64,000 bases of DNA from Clostridia bacterium. Its GTDB lineage: Bacteria > Bacillota > Clostridia > Oscillospirales > Acutalibacteraceae. Of this stretch, positions 58,728 to 64,000 are shown in pieces. The position numbers and the translations under genes are program-made. Under the pieces are notes generated by a model. That model did not search any database, was not told the DNA's origin, and saw only the letters and a list, made by a program, of their open reading frames with translations. The stretch lies in NCBI GenBank assembly GCA_017521425.1, contig JAFXCQ010000024.1:62001-126000 (forward strand). Direction: 5' to 3'. How positions within the stretch are numbered: the first letter of the stretch is position 1; every line of letters starts with the position of its first letter.

Positions 58728-58785
58728 GTAATTTTGAGTTTTTACACTTAAATTCGATGTTCTATGTATCGACTTTGAATTACAA

Positions 58786-59136: not shown

Positions 59137-59556
59137 TTAGTTTCTAATGAAAAGGGCTTTGAAGCGTTTAATAATGTTTATACGGTTTTTGTGACAATCA
59201 CTGGAAAATCTGAAAATTTGTGTTACTTGACCTAACCCAAACGCATTCGAGTCGCAAAACACTCCGCAAAATTTAGGAATATTTTTTATTAATTCCCGGC
59301 GTTTTGAAGAATCTTTGATAACAACAAAAATATAATCATATTTTTCCGTTGCTTCATAAATACAAGTTAGCAACTCAGCCCTTGATTTGTTTGTTTCTAA
59401 AATAAAAGTGGTTGTCTTTTGATTTTTGGTAAAGCAGATACTTTCCCCAGTTGATACATCCTCGTATCCTTCTGATATACACCATAACCAAACAATATTA
59501 CGTAGTCTGGTTAATTGCTCATTTGCTGCATCATTCAAATTTGTTGTGGCATGCAT
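59137..59556 (-). CDS. Hypothetical protein, last gene of the AAA/protease operon
   Basis: The 139-residue protein has no membrane segment. Residues about 40-95 show a strand-strand-helix-strand pattern (ICFTKNQKTTTFILET, YDYIFVVIKD) that recalls restriction-endonuclease-like folds, but the usual E-x-K is E-T-N, so this is weak. The start is ATG 59554-59556 with AAGGAG upstream; a longer frame would run over the previous gene. It has no family I can name. It lies 22 bases after the 128-residue gene. Confidence 0.65.
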   Translation of the reverse strand: MHATTNLNDAANEQLTRLRNIVWLWCISEGYEDVSTGESICFTKNQKTTTFILETNKSRAELLTCIYEATEKYDYIFVVIKDSSKRRELIKNIPKFCGVFCDSNAFGLGQVTQIFRFSSDCHKNRINIIKRFKALFIRN

Positions 59557-59578
59557 ATCTCTACTCCTTAATATAGTT

Positions 59579-59965
59579 TTAAGCAGCTTTAAGTGGCGTG
59601 GGTTGAACCGGGAAAGGAATGATTTCAAACAAAGTCATCTGCACAGCACCGCCATCAAAAGTTTCCTCTTGCTCGGAGTATAATTCAGATATTTCGATAT
59701 CGTATTTATTTTTTAGATCTTCAAGTGCCAACTCAATCGCTCTTTCAACATCCGCGATGTTTTCGAAATATTCGGGAATAGCATAGCGGATATCATTGTC
59801 GGTTAAACGTTCCCAACCACGATATGGTGCATTTTTTTCAGTCAATTCTTCAAGTTTATAATTTAAATCATCCAATCTCCATAATAATTGTTCTTCAGGC
59901 GAAGGATAACTTATATCATAATCGAAGTCGATATATTTTTGTGCTAAATCAGAAAAATATCCCAT
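59579..59965 (-). CDS. Hypothetical acidic protein
   Basis: The 128-residue acidic protein (MGYFSDLAQKYIDFDYD) is mostly helical with no membrane segment or cysteine. Proteins that start MGYFSDL are often seen on Clostridial mobile elements, but this is only a pattern. It starts 14 bases after the ClpP-like gene and is part of the operon. Confidence 0.65.
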   Translation of the reverse strand: MGYFSDLAQKYIDFDYDISYPSPEEQLLWRLDDLNYKLEELTEKNAPYRGWERLTDNDIRYAIPEYFENIADVERAIELALEDLKNKYDIEISELYSEQEETFDGGAVQMTLFEIIPFPVQPTPLKAA

Positions 59966-59979
59966 TGTCTACAACCTTT

Positions 59980-60537
59980 CTACTTGTAATAACTGTTAGC
60001 AAGTTTTAATGAAATTGCTTCGCTGGCAGGTATATACCACTCGGCTTTGCGTGTAATGTAATCCTGGAGTTTTTCTTCTTCCACTGCAGATGTACCGACA
60101 ATCTCAGATATTAGCATCTGCTGAAGTCTTAACATTTCATTCAGTTCTTGCTTGATTCCTTCCGTTTTGTCAACTGCGAAAGTTGAGATATCATGAAACA
60201 TCAAAGTGGCCCTTTCACCAACCAATCGTTTTATTCCGGAAAGCCAAATCCAAAGAGCCATACTCATACAAGATCCAACACAAATCGTATGTACCGGGGT
60301 TTTACTGTTTTTGATAACATCAATCAAAGCTAAACCGTCGTATACACTTCCGCCATATGAATTGATAAATAATTTAATCGGTGTTCTTTCCCAGTCTTTG
60401 TATATTTCCTCTTTTTCTAAATCATCCTCGTTTATCTCTAATATACTATCCATTATACTTTTTACGGATCCTTGAGAGATTCGATCACTTAATAGAAGTG
60501 TTCTTTTCTTATGTTCCGGATACTTTTCCGTGCTCAT
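59980..60537 (-). CDS. ClpP-like serine protease
   Basis: The 185-residue protein has the ClpP fold pattern: KLFINSYGGSVYDGLALIDVI, then GSCMSMA with Ser92 as the nucleophile (ClpP GQAASMA) and RATLMFHD with His115. The third residue, an Asp in ClpP (ERDRF/FMSAEEA region), appears to be Glu166 (RKAEWYIPASEA). The product may be an active but altered protease. It lacks a propeptide. The housekeeping clpP is likely elsewhere. The start overlaps the upstream gene by 29 bases; a GGATGG site precedes it. Confidence 0.85.
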   Translation of the reverse strand: MSTEKYPEHKKRTLLLSDRISQGSVKSIMDSILEINEDDLEKEEIYKDWERTPIKLFINSYGGSVYDGLALIDVIKNSKTPVHTICVGSCMSMALWIWLSGIKRLVGERATLMFHDISTFAVDKTEGIKQELNEMLRLQQMLISEIVGTSAVEEEKLQDYITRKAEWYIPASEAISLKLANSYYK

Positions 60538-61396
60538 TGTTTTTGCCCATCCATTTCCTTTTTAATGATTCTTGCATAGGAAGTGTTAGTATAATCACTT
60601 GCCTTCCTAACTTTGTCGTCCGTGCAATCAGACCGTCTATATCGGTTGTTTGATCTAAAAACTCAAGAAAGTTTTTAATTATAAGCGGCTTTTTTTCATG
60701 ATGCATATCGCGGATTTTTTCAACATCTTCCCAAAACTCCGCCACATTCAAAAAACAAATATACAAAAACAGCTTCTCCTCTGTTTCACTCAATGGTATT
60801 TCACCGGACACACCAGGATACACTACTTCAAACCTTCCTTGATTGTTGATAGTTGCCTTATAATTCTTAATATTGTTAATTGGCTCAGGTTCAAATGCTT
60901 TAATATATCGCATCAAATGCGACCTAAAGGTTTTGGTACTAACCACATAGTTTGATCTACTATGTAGATCCTTTGGCGCTTCATAGTCATCACAACCCCT
61001 ATACCAGCACAGTCTTAATGGGAAAGAGTCATCTCGACCATCAAAATTATCTATGGTATCCTGTTCTGTGCAATGCGATATTAAGGTACGATAAAAATCT
61101 GTAACATCTTTTTCTTTATCATCTAATGTGGTTAGCTTCAGTAAACCTTCGTCAGTCGGCTTCAGTTCAATATAATAACTACTTTCTGCCACTAAAACCT
61201 CCGCTGTAATCAGCGTGTCATCTTGCACGCCAATAACGTGGTGCTCTTGCAAGGCCTTACTACATAGCACTAATTCAATCGCAGTTGAAATTTCCGATGT
61301 AAAAAGAGTATCAAGTATATTTAATTTTGAGGTCAAGACAGTATCATAAAACTCGACCGAGCCAAAGTTTTTTACTGTAATACGTTTAATAATCAT
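60509..61396 (-). CDS. RecF/SMC-like protein without a P-loop
   Basis: The 295-residue protein starts MIIKRITVKNFGSVEFYD, as RecF, SMC and related ABC-type ATPases do. The Walker A expected next is absent (DTLFTSEISTAIELVL). In the C-terminal half LSETEEKLFLYICFLN stands for the signature helix and PLIIKNFLEFLD for Walker B, followed by QVIILTLP. It is probably a degenerate ATPase-fold protein that binds partners or nucleic acid without hydrolysis. The start at 61396 has a weak ribosome site; frames to 61528 overlap the upstream gene and are unlikely. Confidence 0.65.
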   Translation of the reverse strand: MIIKRITVKNFGSVEFYDTVLTSKLNILDTLFTSEISTAIELVLCSKALQEHHVIGVQDDTLITAEVLVAESSYYIELKPTDEGLLKLTTLDDKEKDVTDFYRTLISHCTEQDTIDNFDGRDDSFPLRLCWYRGCDDYEAPKDLHSRSNYVVSTKTFRSHLMRYIKAFEPEPINNIKNYKATINNQGRFEVVYPGVSGEIPLSETEEKLFLYICFLNVAEFWEDVEKIRDMHHEKKPLIIKNFLEFLDQTTDIDGLIARTTKLGRQVIILTLPMQESLKRKWMGKNNEHGKVSGT

Positions 61397-61427
61397 CACA
61401 GTATACTTGTATATTGTGCGCTGTTGC

Positions 61428-62738
61428 TTACAAAGCAACAGGCACAATTTTACACTCGCTCTTGATTTTTTGAATATCAACAGCAGAAAGTAACTTCTTT
61501 TTGGCAAGAGCTGTTGCAATTTTCTCAAAGAATTCGAAGTTCAGAGAGATAATCTCTTTGGCTTTTCTGTAGAATTTTTCGACTTCGGCAGCAACCGCTT
61601 TCTCTTGCTCGGACTTCAAAGATTCGGTATCTTCATAACCATTACAATGCAAATGGAACCCACTAATGCAAGTGTTTACAATCAAGTTCTTAGTTCTGTC
61701 AAAAGCTTGTTCAAGGTCGCGCTCGCCGCCCACATCAAAGATACCATATTTTTGTTCAATAGCAGCAATGCCACCTAACGCACCGACAATACGACTCTTA
61801 TTCCAATAAAGCGGAGATTGAGATTTGTCATTGTAATAATCGGTAAATCCACCACTTCTACCGCCTCGATTATGCGCCGACACGAGCGTTACGCTTTCAG
61901 GACAAAGAACTTCCGAAACGACTGCATGGCCGGCTTCGTGATATACGATTTGTGAAGCGAACTTTTTGGAATCATCTAAAGAAGAATAAAAATCTTCATC
62001 CTCTAATTCGTCAGATGCAGCAGGGACGTCAAATACGGTACGCATTAACGCTTCCATAAAATGGTCCATAGTGATAAACTCTGCACGCTCGTAACCGGCA
62101 TAAAGGCCTGCTTCGTTAATAACAGTTTCCAATTCAGCACAAGAACGACCGTCCATAATACGAGCAATCGTTTTTGCATCCACGTTATCAACGACTTTTT
62201 TGCTTTTCAGATAATGAGCAATAATTGCCAACGCATCTTTGCCGCGAGGAGTATCAATTTCAATAACCCTGTCAAAACGTCCCGCACGATGGAGGGAACG
62301 AGGCAAACAACGCATATTATTGACCGTCGCCAAGACAAATACTTCTTTACCTTTAGCCTCATCAATACAAGACTGAACGGTAACATATTCTTCAGCATCG
62401 GGATGACGTTCATCGCCGTTAGCAAACTTGTCCATATCATCCAAAAGTACAATGGACGGAGCGTTTTCGATTGCTTTTTCAAAGGTGGCTTTAATCACCT
62501 TTACAAAATCACCATTAGGTTGGTCCTTTCGACAAACAAATGCTTTACGACCACTTTCTTCAATAACGGCACTTGCCATCAAAGATTTACCAACACCGGG
62601 CTCACCGTACAAGAGAAGGCCTCTGGGCGAAGAAACGCCAAGCTTTGCGTAAACCTCACGATTTTTGAGCGTGTCTGCAATTTGTTTAAGTTCCTTCTTA
62701 ACTGCAGAGTAACCAATAATCTTATCAAATTTGCTCAT
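61428..62738 (-). CDS. Soluble FtsH-like AAA+ M41 metalloprotease
   Basis: The 436-residue protein has an AAA+ domain with Walker A GEPGVGKS (45-52), Walker B IVLLDDMD (96-103) and an arginine finger region (RAGRFDR 151-157), then an M41 protease domain with HEAGH at 267-271 and an acidic third ligand (GGERDLEQA, Asp341). FtsH has two N-terminal membrane segments; none is present here. It should unfold and cut soluble proteins. It is the second gene of the operon visible in the window, 64 bases after the CbxX-like gene. Confidence 0.92.
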   Translation of the reverse strand: MSKFDKIIGYSAVKKELKQIADTLKNREVYAKLGVSSPRGLLLYGEPGVGKSLMASAVIEESGRKAFVCRKDQPNGDFVKVIKATFEKAIENAPSIVLLDDMDKFANGDERHPDAEEYVTVQSCIDEAKGKEVFVLATVNNMRCLPRSLHRAGRFDRVIEIDTPRGKDALAIIAHYLKSKKVVDNVDAKTIARIMDGRSCAELETVINEAGLYAGYERAEFITMDHFMEALMRTVFDVPAASDELEDEDFYSSLDDSKKFASQIVYHEAGHAVVSEVLCPESVTLVSAHNRGGRSGGFTDYYNDKSQSPLYWNKSRIVGALGGIAAIEQKYGIFDVGGERDLEQAFDRTKNLIVNTCISGFHLHCNGYEDTESLKSEQEKAVAAEVEKFYRKAKEIISLNFEFFEKIATALAKKKLLSAVDIQKIKSECKIVPVAL

Positions 62739-62802
62739 ATGTATTACCTCTTTCTTTTAGTGTATCTTTATTATACGATTTCTTATGTACCATTTTTGGT
62801 GT

Positions 62803-64000
62803 TTAACAGGCAAAACCAATTTTTCGCTTTTCTTCGATTTTTTCTTCCGGAATTACAATATCAACAGCTTTGATTGTTGTGATTTCTTCGGTAGTAATAT
62901 CTTCAAAATCGTATTTAAGTAATCGCGAAGCCTGATTCATTTTAGCTTGTTCAAGAACGTTGCGCACATAGCGACCGTTGCCAAAATCACTTTGCTTTCT
63001 TGCTGTCTCAAATATCGTTCCAAGTTTTTGGAGAGCAGCATCTTCAAGAGATATTCCCTTATTTTTACCGATTAACGCAGCAATTTTACAAAGTTCATCG
63101 GCATCATAATCTTCAAAAGGAACATGGAAAGCAATTCGAGAACGCAAACCAGGATTTTTTTGCAAGAACTTTTCCATTTCATCAGGATAGCCGGCGAAGA
63201 TAACAACAACATCCTCGCGATGATTTTCCATTTCTTGAACAATGGTGTTAATTGCCTCATCACCGAATGACCCACTACGGTCATCTACAAGAGAATATGC
63301 CTCATCAATGAACAACACACCACCCATAGCCGCTTTAAATTTTGATTGAACAGTTTGCGCTGTCCAACCAACATATTTACCTACCAAATCGCCTCTGCCT
63401 ACTTCAACAAGTTGGCCTTTGGAAAGCAGGCCGTTATCTTTCATAATGCGAGCAAAAAGTCTTGCCGCAGTTGTTTTTGCGGTTCCGGGATTCCCTTTAA
63501 ACACCATATGCATTGCAGGGGTATCACGTTTGAGCCCTTTTTCCTCATAAAGTTTTTGCATCTTATAGTAATTTAAGGCCTTTTGAATTACTGACTTAGC
63601 TTCTTTAAGACCAATCATATCTTGAAGTTCATCATAGGCAGATCCCTTCGGCGTTGCTTTTACAACTTCTTGTTTGGCTATTTTCAAATCTTTATATTGA
63701 GGGTAGATTGCGGTTTTAAGTTTGTTGTTATACCATTCATCAAATATAGTGCGCAAGTCCGGAGCAAGATACCCCTTATCTGCTTCCAGTTTTGCAAATA
63801 ACGCTTTATCTGTCCTAACCTTATTTTCTTTTGCTAACATTTTAAGGAAAGAACAGGCTTGCTCACCATCCACAAAATCCTCTTGGATTTCTACGAAGGT
63901 CATAGTGCCAAGGTTTTCATAAAACAACGATTTAGCCTTTTTGCATTCACGAGGCAAACAAATGACGGTCAGTACCTGATTGCGGTAACGCTTTGCAACT
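62803..64000 (-). CDS. CbxX/SpoVK-type AAA+ ATPase (5' part beyond the window)
   Basis: The visible frame is open to the right edge, so the gene begins outside the window. Residues in the window give an AAA+ domain with Walker A GNPGTAKTTAARLFA, Walker B GGVLFIDEAYSLVDD, ENHREDVVVIFAGYPDEM and NPGLRSRIAFHVPFEDY, the CbxX/CfxQ/SpoVK pattern. The region before it (VLTVICLPRECK, FVEIQEDFVDGE) looks like the end of a preceding AAA+ domain, so a tandem AAA+ protein is likely. It would act as a motor, perhaps for the proteases encoded behind it. Confidence 0.88.
   Translation of the reverse strand, partial: VAKRYRNQVLTVICLPRECKKAKSLFYENLGTMTFVEIQEDFVDGEQACSFLKMLAKENKVRTDKALFAKLEADKGYLAPDLRTIFDEWYNNKLKTAIYPQYKDLKIAKQEVVKATPKGSAYDELQDMIGLKEAKSVIQKALNYYKMQKLYEEKGLKRDTPAMHMVFKGNPGTAKTTAARLFARIMKDNGLLSKGQLVEVGRGDLVGKYVGWTAQTVQSKFKAAMGGVLFIDEAYSLVDDRSGSFGDEAINTIVQEMENHREDVVVIFAGYPDEMEKFLQKNPGLRSRIAFHVPFEDYDADELCKIAALIGKNKGISLEDAALQKLGTIFETARKQSDFGNGRYVRNVLEQAKMNQASRLLKYDFEDITTEEITTIKAVDIVIPEEKIEEKRKIGFAC

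Follow-up and report, generated by a model that had tools for sequence, protein, structure and literature searches.

FtsH-containing MoxR-vWA ternary conflict systems are described, in the accessible part of the source, as having a third component with two FtsH AAA copies, the first of which is dead (Kaur et al. 2020, PMC7159879). The binding element of the actinobacterial regulator PafBC lies, according to the available portions of the reports, just upstream of the -10 hexamer and in place of the -35 hexamer, and its regulon includes DNA/repair genes (PMC8223512, PMC11804915). The present analysis concerns a stretch of 64,000 nucleotides from a Clostridia bacterium (the window; C31:62001-126000 of a 2.35-Mb genome in 33 contigs), at one end of which six minus-strand genes encode a CbxX/SpoVK-type AAA+ motor, a soluble FtsH-like protease, a RecF-like protein, a ClpP-like protein and two small proteins. 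A putative palindromic promoter element lacking the -35 hexamer, new to this work, was found before FtsH genes across gut Clostridia, and the six genes are, judging from their sequence context, the tail of a larger WYL-type island. The preliminary description had held that the role of these genes cannot be known from sequence, which proved too pessimistic, the shared promoter yielding a testable regulatory model.

Putative promoter element of the FtsH genes

Relatives of the FtsH-like protein were sought in a genome collection, where 251 were confirmed and 80 kept (by their titles, mostly from Clostridia metagenome-assembled genomes, MAGs). With one viral locus, these formed a set of 81 loci (1.22 Mb), 19 of which were stretches shorter than 10 kb that may hide genes. 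The element, first visible as a repeated motif in the intergenic gaps of the island, consists of the palindrome ATGT(A/C)CC-N6-GG(T/G)ACAT (ATGTMCC-N6-GGKACAT), 9 nt and the -10 hexamer TATAAT, with no -35 hexamer. A position weight matrix (PWM) was grown from 79 FtsH upstream sequences, and 50 of these passed, compared with 14-21 when the same procedure was run on shuffled sequences (20 runs) and 16-23 when it was run on 79 other genes (20 draws); the arm symmetry of the palindrome was 4.72 of 7, against 1.25-2.72 and 1.59-3.53, respectively. In a held-out test by groups of 60% identity (the two largest with 23 and 13 members; 2 FtsH, 1 WYL and 30 other upstream sequences from loci without a usable FtsH ORF were dropped), sites were found before 33/77 FtsH, 10/52 WYL and 4/10 CbxX genes, against 40/695 other genes and 0/77 shuffled sequences. 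When the model was trained on all sequences, a site preceded 12/78 genes of recurrent conflict families and 41/647 of the rest. Among the 48 sites scoring at least 14, the -10 hexamer ended 29-36 nt before the start codon in 30; TTGACA was matched at no more than two of six positions in 39 (background: 48% at three or more), and an extended -10 was represented by T in 39 and by TG in 27.

The site of the FtsH gene of the window scored 26.4, the next best score in the window being 7.8. In 133.7 kb of the contig, there were six sites of at least 15, compared with two in all in 10 shuffles. Five of them head sub-operons of the island, namely, those of FtsH, of the ligase, of LRR-SNF2-MoxR-VWA, of REase-ARP-WYL-GmrSD and of the dGTPase, and the sixth (C31:158174-158135) stands, 12 kb away from the island, before a PcfJ-like gene (C31:156418-158067, minus strand; PF14284, 20.0 bits, below the cut-off of 25). 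Locus L062 has a homolog of this PcfJ-like gene (28% identity, E 4e-68) in the interval from CbxX to FtsH. Sites resembling the variant before our CbxX gene precede CbxX in L046, L047 and L060, as well as the CbxX fragment of L048. The Butyrivibrio plasmid pCY186, which was outside the training set, contained six sites (23.8-29.7), all of them in front of annotated genes that include WYL and FtsH. A one-mismatch site (C18:169126-169150) was located 77 bp upstream of an AddB gene (ADDB_N, 7.3e-50) elsewhere in the genome, a hint that recombination repair may join the regulon. Whole-genome pattern searches for the element were uninformative, and in the literature searches made, it was not found in print.

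A WYL gene was present in 51 of the 81 loci, within 400 bp of FtsH in 25 and within 1.5 kb in 32, whereas the expectation for 1.22 Mb is about one (35 WYL matches in ~37 Mb of 16 FtsH genomes). In 6 of these 16 genomes, a WYL gene lay no further than 10 kb from FtsH, against ~0.3 expected. The distances between FtsH sequences and between WYL sequences correlated (Mantel test: r = 0.40 over 31 loci, a value reached in 0/2000 permutations). It is by association that the WYL protein is proposed as a candidate binder of the palindrome.

The 25-kb island and its six-gene tail

The island spans ~25 kb and 19 genes on one strand (C31:121137-146019) and extends 20 kb beyond the window. Its upstream part encodes an HD-domain dGTPase-like protein, a 68-aa ORF, a DUF2779/Cas4-like nuclease, a REase-ARP protein, the WYL regulator and a GmrSD-like pair; these are followed by LRR, SNF2 helicase, MoxR, DUF2201 zincin-VWA, DNA ligase and SUFU genes, and then, at the downstream end, by CbxX, soluble FtsH, the Rad50-head pseudo-ATPase, the ClpP-like protein and the two small proteins. 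The WYL regulator matched WYL (3e-8) and WCX (1.9e-6) above the cut-off and HTH_11 (0.001) below its cut-off; a 595-aa protein matched GmrSD_N (1.7e-34) and GmrSD_C (2.1e-5), both above the cut-off, and a 741-aa protein GmrSD_N only. The adjacent MoxR (P-loop GPPGVGKS) and VWA genes overlap by 14 nt, and the VWA protein matched DUF2201 VWA-like (1.1e-15). The latter (C31:129473-130996) contains, in addition, a putative metallopeptidase domain (DUF2201_N) with HEILH and is a possible third peptidase of the island. PADLOC returned GmrSD-like, dGTPase, WYL, Cas4 and SNF2 matches for 10 upstream island proteins. A conflict-type role is supported because the six genes adjoin GmrSD-type, REase-ARP, dGTPase-like, Cas4-like and WYL genes. 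Thus, of the shared defence, mobile-element or quality-control role proposed previously, a conflict or quality-control kind is upheld (RtcB, NADAR, Macro and phosphatase genes occurring at other loci), whereas the six genes as its unit are not.

In a sister species (G002, contig C17), position C31:120761 (58761 of the window) is joined to C31:146355 across 123 bp and the intervening 25.6 kb are missing, so that the junction is an apparent empty site; contig C17 ends inside the join, and G002, a MAG of 80% completeness, has no FtsH match at the threshold used for relatives (E<=1e-40). On contig C59 of the same species, AhpC/AhpF-like genes (recognised by eye) precede the same EAL gene, as opposed to the GNAT side without the island on C17. 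The right-hand landmark gene was found in five other genomes of the genus, G002 among them, and in the five landmark stretches fetched, blastn showed no island DNA adjoining it. The left border gave no Rfam RNA. As to the integrase and phage genes that the preliminary description had suggested looking for upstream, there was no PF00589 match on C31 (five in the genome, on C14, C18 and C23; serine recombinases were not searched), and no match to head, tail, terminase or portal families of Pfam was obtained with the 12 further proteins of the island that were scanned, the 68-aa one not being included. L060 (Oscillospiraceae SIG577, a 98% relative) contains a near-identical copy of the stretch fetched, from SNF2 to the last small gene.

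The following features were recognised at the end of the window:

58761..58762, strandless: left island border, as the junction in sister species G002, contig C17
59077..59124, minus strand: intrinsic terminator at the end of the FtsH operon (-25.4 kcal/mol; z -5.4 relative to 200 shuffles), then a T-run
59137..59556, minus strand: small terminal protein, 139 aa, no family; start ATG 59556 behind AAGGAG, full ORF 59137-59628
59579..59965, minus strand: small 128-aa protein (ORF) with C-terminal Ala-Ala
59980..60537, minus strand: ClpP-like protein (S14), 185 aa; CLP_protease 6.3e-22 (Pfam)
60509..61396, minus strand: Rad50/SMC-head-like putative pseudo-ATPase without P-loop, 295 aa (alignment and structure model); full ORF 60509-61528
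61428..62738, minus strand: soluble FtsH-like AAA+ M41 protease, 436 aa; AAA and Peptidase_M41 (Pfam)
62765..62804, minus strand: predicted operator-promoter of the FtsH operon; palindrome 62804-62785, -10 TATAAT 62775-62770, no -35
62803..64000, minus strand: CbxX/SpoVK-type AAA+ motor (AAA_lid_6), C-terminal 398 of 681 codons within the window

All six tightly spaced minus-strand ORFs reported earlier were confirmed, with two starts trimmed: that of the small terminal gene most likely to ATG 59556 (139 aa instead of the 163 aa of the earlier call) and that of the RecF-like gene to ATG 61396. With the trimmed starts, the spacing is as originally given (an overlap of 29 nt, then 14 and 22 nt), and the single terminator at the end, overlooked by a simple terminator scan, was recovered by folding against shuffles. 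The CbxX gene is cut by the window edge and continues to C31:126848. The AAA+M41, ClpP-like and CbxX/SpoVK assignments, already made in the preliminary description, were backed by Pfam, PHROGs, PADLOC and NCBIfam; the RecF-like protein and both small proteins, the latter rightly called unknown, had no Pfam family above the cut-off. The set is indeed unusual, yet the compact six-gene operon did not hold as a unit. Since FtsH has its own predicted promoter, located between CbxX and FtsH, transcription of CbxX may be separate from that of the five genes downstream.

The FtsH-like protein (AAA 2.1e-19, Peptidase_M41 9.7e-12) begins at the AAA domain, without the membrane N-terminus, and therefore has no N-terminal membrane anchor. 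H267, E268 and H271 (HEAGH), together with Asp341 at the position of the third ligand, were invariant in 15 aligned FtsH sequences, its own included; in all 15, Walker B was DDxDK rather than DE. The score against the housekeeping family TIGR01241 was 173.7 bits, below the cut-off of 600 (NCBIfam). By sequence, the protein is thus an AAA+ domain fused to M41 with apparently intact active-site motifs, distinct from membrane-anchored housekeeping FtsH. Its distribution was patchy: 6/99 relatives (E<=1e-40) and 11/393 genomes of the class (E<=1e-60), our genome being counted in both. Cultured carriers are Butyrivibrio proteoclasticus B316 and Schwartzia succinivorans DSM 10502. On plasmid pCY186 of strain B316 (NC_014390.1, L227), FtsH is annotated merely as an AAA family ATPase, and the plasmid also has PolC, DnaX, a WYL gene (BPR_RS19065) and, within 17 kb, six operator sites. 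PolC/PHP-type polymerases, as genes or fragments, were met repeatedly in the vicinity of FtsH (L061, L067, L123 and L227).

CbxX (AAA_lid_6, 1.6e-18) has, in its N-terminal half, an AAA-like domain without a P-loop. Its C-terminal IGF tail was found in 10/10 CbxX proteins of the loci and in 1/922 other proteins; in the class search, a hydrophobic-Gly-Phe tail ended 13/13 long CbxX homologs (our own included) and 0/14 ordinary SpoVK-type proteins whose end was seen, three further ones being cut off. ClpX docks on ClpP through an IGF loop. The tail resembles this docking tripeptide, and CbxX may accordingly dock on the ClpP-like protein or on host ClpP. In the ClpP-like protein, Ser92 and His115 align with what we take to be the catalytic pair of ClpP; the best match to PHROGs head-maturation families was 4.4e-26, and among 12 matches listed of 63 phage records, identity was 31.5-39.4% and two were named head maturation protease. 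The AlphaFold model of the RecF-like protein (pLDDT 77.9) matched Rad50/SMC/RecF heads in Foldseek (6.5e-9), and no Walker A was seen by eye in seven aligned sequences; in line with the P-loop-less RecF/SMC-like protein reported earlier, it is, as modelled, a degenerate head of the Rad50/SMC/RecF type and a putative pseudo-ATPase. In the 128-aa protein, the C-terminal Ala-Ala was invariant (5/5 aligned). Such an ending is ssrA-like, that is, degron-like, and the protein is a possible substrate or adaptor.

The check for conserved neighbours proposed in the preliminary description was partly favourable: among the 81 loci, all six genes were found together only in L060, and five of the six in L046 and L047. 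These two keep the order CbxX-FtsH-RecF-ClpP-128aa, interrupted in L047 by an additional gene ahead of the 128-aa one; identities were 67-79% for CbxX, FtsH and the ClpP-like protein, 27-28% for the RecF-like protein and 50-51% for the 128-aa protein. The terminal 139-aa protein was found solely in L060. In L046, the FtsH-RecF-ClpP-128aa-c9 genes have a long CbxX gene on either side, the two being different. Other neighbours of FtsH (same loci, E<=1e-10) were a calcineurin-like (MPE) phosphatase in 17, CbxX and DUF2779 in 10 each, RtcB in 9, VWA, MoxR, RecF-like and SNF2 in 7 each, NADAR and Macro in 5 each, ClpP in 4 (one of which, in L076, with 28% identity and on the other strand, looks ordinary), ADP-ribosylglycohydrolase in 2 and KptA in 1. 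Pfam analysis of 61 selected neighbours gave, among the families listed (25/39), Macro, RtcB, KptA, NADAR, ADP-ribosylglycohydrolase and PD-(D/E)XK nucleases. L095 contains a putative operon of AddB-like, AddA-like, CbxX, WYL and FtsH genes (AddAB recognised by eye).

Regulatory model and rival explanations

On balance, it is probable that a WYL-type regulator activates a conflict island whose proteolytic arm consists of the soluble FtsH and a CbxX motor docking on ClpP; the most likely role of the island would be in conflict, against phages. Direct control by the WYL protein, the anti-phage action and the docking are inferred. In this model, the HTH-WYL regulator would sense nucleic-acid damage or products of invasion and, by analogy with PafBC, would activate the promoters with the element together with the housekeeping sigma factor, the ~20-bp palindrome, 9 nt before the -10, replacing the -35. 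Activation would turn on nucleases, the helicase, the ligase, the dGTPase and two ATP-dependent proteolytic machines, namely, the self-contained soluble FtsH-like protease and the CbxX motor, which would engage the ClpP-like protein (or host ClpP) through its C-terminal IGF tail in the way that ClpX uses its IGF loop. The Rad50-head pseudo-ATPase could be a scaffold binding nucleic acids or substrates, and the small protein ending in AA an adaptor or substrate. The part of FtsH would be either to clear invader or toxic complexes or to end the response by degrading its own regulators, like the Pup-proteasome in the PafBC response. A wider reading, which is tentative, takes the island as the large form of an undescribed WYL regulon of gut and rumen Clostridia, in which palindromic promoters without a -35, sigma adaptation and the sensing of invaders or damage would be coupled to soluble FtsH and to a new analogue of ClpXP with the IGF-tailed CbxX.

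It should be noted that several observations weigh against this model. The 40/695 other genes with a site belong to the same loci, and 29/79 FtsH upstream sequences had no site above the threshold; the seeds of the PWM came from our island, and L060, the 98% relative, was among the training sequences. Sites of lower score (10.1-13.6) occur at three places outside the island, the CbxX site of our island, degenerate in its left arm, scores below the PWM listing, the -10 of the dGTPase operon is poor, and the REase-ARP palindrome pairs at just 3 of 7 positions. In our island, the WYL gene lies 16 kb from FtsH, and 30 of the 81 FtsH loci had no WYL gene in the stretch fetched, which in 19 of the 81 is shorter than 10 kb. 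The correlation of element and WYL distances was weak (Mantel test: r = 0.17, p = 0.05) and vanished once FtsH relatedness was removed (partial 0.09, p = 0.18-0.19). The IGF tail is also present where no ClpP gene is near, and the catalytic Asp was not evident in the alignment of the ClpP-like protein, which leaves the triad incomplete.

With the same island and regulator, the WYL protein could instead be a BrxR/CapW-type repressor over the -35 region, released by a ligand and acting without sigma adaptation, which we consider possible, if rather unlikely. The WYL genes themselves bear the site (10/52 held out), and BrxR, according to the accessible part of the report, binds inverted repeats near its own promoter and represses a defence island, about half of its homologs lying beside phage defence (PMC9122601). 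However, a simple repressor needs neither the fixed spacing to the -10 (which is part of the model) nor the missing -35 (39/48 sites with at most two of six matches). A comparably doubtful alternative is a general response to nucleic-acid damage, combining DNA/RNA repair, ADP-ribose clean-up and protein quality control, with phage as one of several triggers. It agrees with RtcB, Macro, NADAR, ADP-ribosylglycohydrolase and KptA beside FtsH at other loci, with the DNA ligase of our island, with the site before AddB and with PafBC, a WYL activator beside the Pup-proteasome locus, which the available portion of the source describes as a DNA-damage regulator (PMC8223512). The patchy distribution (6/99 and 11/393), the restriction-type genes and the apparent empty site agree better with mobile defence than with core repair.

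A free-standing six-gene protease system with unrelated neighbours is improbable: although the gene order is kept in L046 and L047, CbxX and FtsH each have their own site, 11 further CbxX stretches from the class search had no FtsH (7 had WYL and 10 a site of at least 13), and 71 of the 81 FtsH stretches, some of them short, had no CbxX. Still more improbable is the cargo of an integrative or phage element, with a head-maturation protease and replication-type AAA proteins. The PHROGs matches of the ClpP-like protein and the Butyrivibrio plasmid with FtsH, PolC and DnaX point in this direction; the lack of a PF00589 integrase on C31 (serine recombinases outside the search) and of Pfam phage structural matches in the 12 other island proteins scanned points away from it, as do the viral contigs, which gave 11 FtsH loci, two at 39-46% identity and the others at 23-37% or as short matches. 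A match to a known plasmid or phage module, named earlier as a possible refutation, was sought and rejected: in two annotated collections, 254 plasmid and 27 phage records matched FtsH, none with at least 60% identity. Among the 12 plasmid matches listed, six were annotated as ftsH.

WYL regulators are abundant, yet to our knowledge operators and regulons have been worked out for only a few of them. Under WYL-type activation of the island, a promoter element that can be found by sequence would unite scattered unnamed genes of gut bacteria (soluble FtsH, IGF-tailed CbxX, DUF2779, PcfJ-like and SNF2-MoxR-VWA) in a single regulon open to testing. Beyond the actinobacteria, an ATP-dependent protease would likewise emerge as a regular partner of WYL signalling, and CbxX as a ClpP-docking motor of a new kind.

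Comparison with known systems

Known named defence systems were considered and rejected, PADLOC giving just AAA-level matches for the six genes and no named system fitting; within the libraries and searches used, no published system was found to match the island. The FtsH protein resembles IetA of IetAS in its AAA part only (PADLOC 1.8e-21, residues 7-259); its score against NF042959 was 62.5 bits, with a cut-off of 510, and a scan of the 12 other island proteins matched no IetS-like subtilase. The nearest named kind is the FtsH-MoxR-vWA ternary system, which likewise has a MoxR AAA+ protein, a vWA protein and an FtsH-type AAA+ protein in one neighbourhood and in a conflict setting; yet its defining feature, the two AAA copies, is not seen here. 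Compared with the accessible description (PMC7159879), our protein of 436 aa has a single AAA match with intact motifs, fused to intact M41, the MoxR P-loop is GPPGVGKS instead of GxxxTAKS, no Ubl parts were found here, and the island adds CbxX, the ClpP-like and Rad50-like proteins and the shared promoter element.

With ARG-centric WYL-regulated systems, the FtsH loci share the WYL regulator, phosphatases, NADAR/Macro/ADP-ribosylglycohydrolase, vWA and REases, whereas no AAA+ protease is named in the available part of their description (PMC9503650), and no ADP-ribose enzyme occurred among the proteins of our island that were scanned. ClpXP and ClpAP also pair an AAA+ motor bearing a hydrophobic-Gly-Phe tripeptide with a ClpP-like peptidase; here the motor belongs to the CbxX/SpoVK clade, the tripeptide is a C-terminal tail and not a loop, and the triad of the ClpP-like protein is incomplete. 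The BrxR/CapW repressors, as far as the accessible text goes (PMC9122601), resemble our locus in the HTH-WYL protein, the inverted repeats and the defence genes, including type IV restriction, and differ from it in that the present element replaces the -35, keeps a fixed distance to the -10 and recurs at several sub-operons. The PafBC/Pup-proteasome locus of actinobacteria, in the portions of the reports available, is similar in having an HTH-WYL regulator beside an ATP-dependent protease, an element replacing the -35 and DNA/repair genes. Our locus differs in having a palindrome and a single WYL protein in place of the PafB/PafC pair, FtsH and CbxX/ClpP instead of the proteasome, and a setting of patchy islands in Clostridia.

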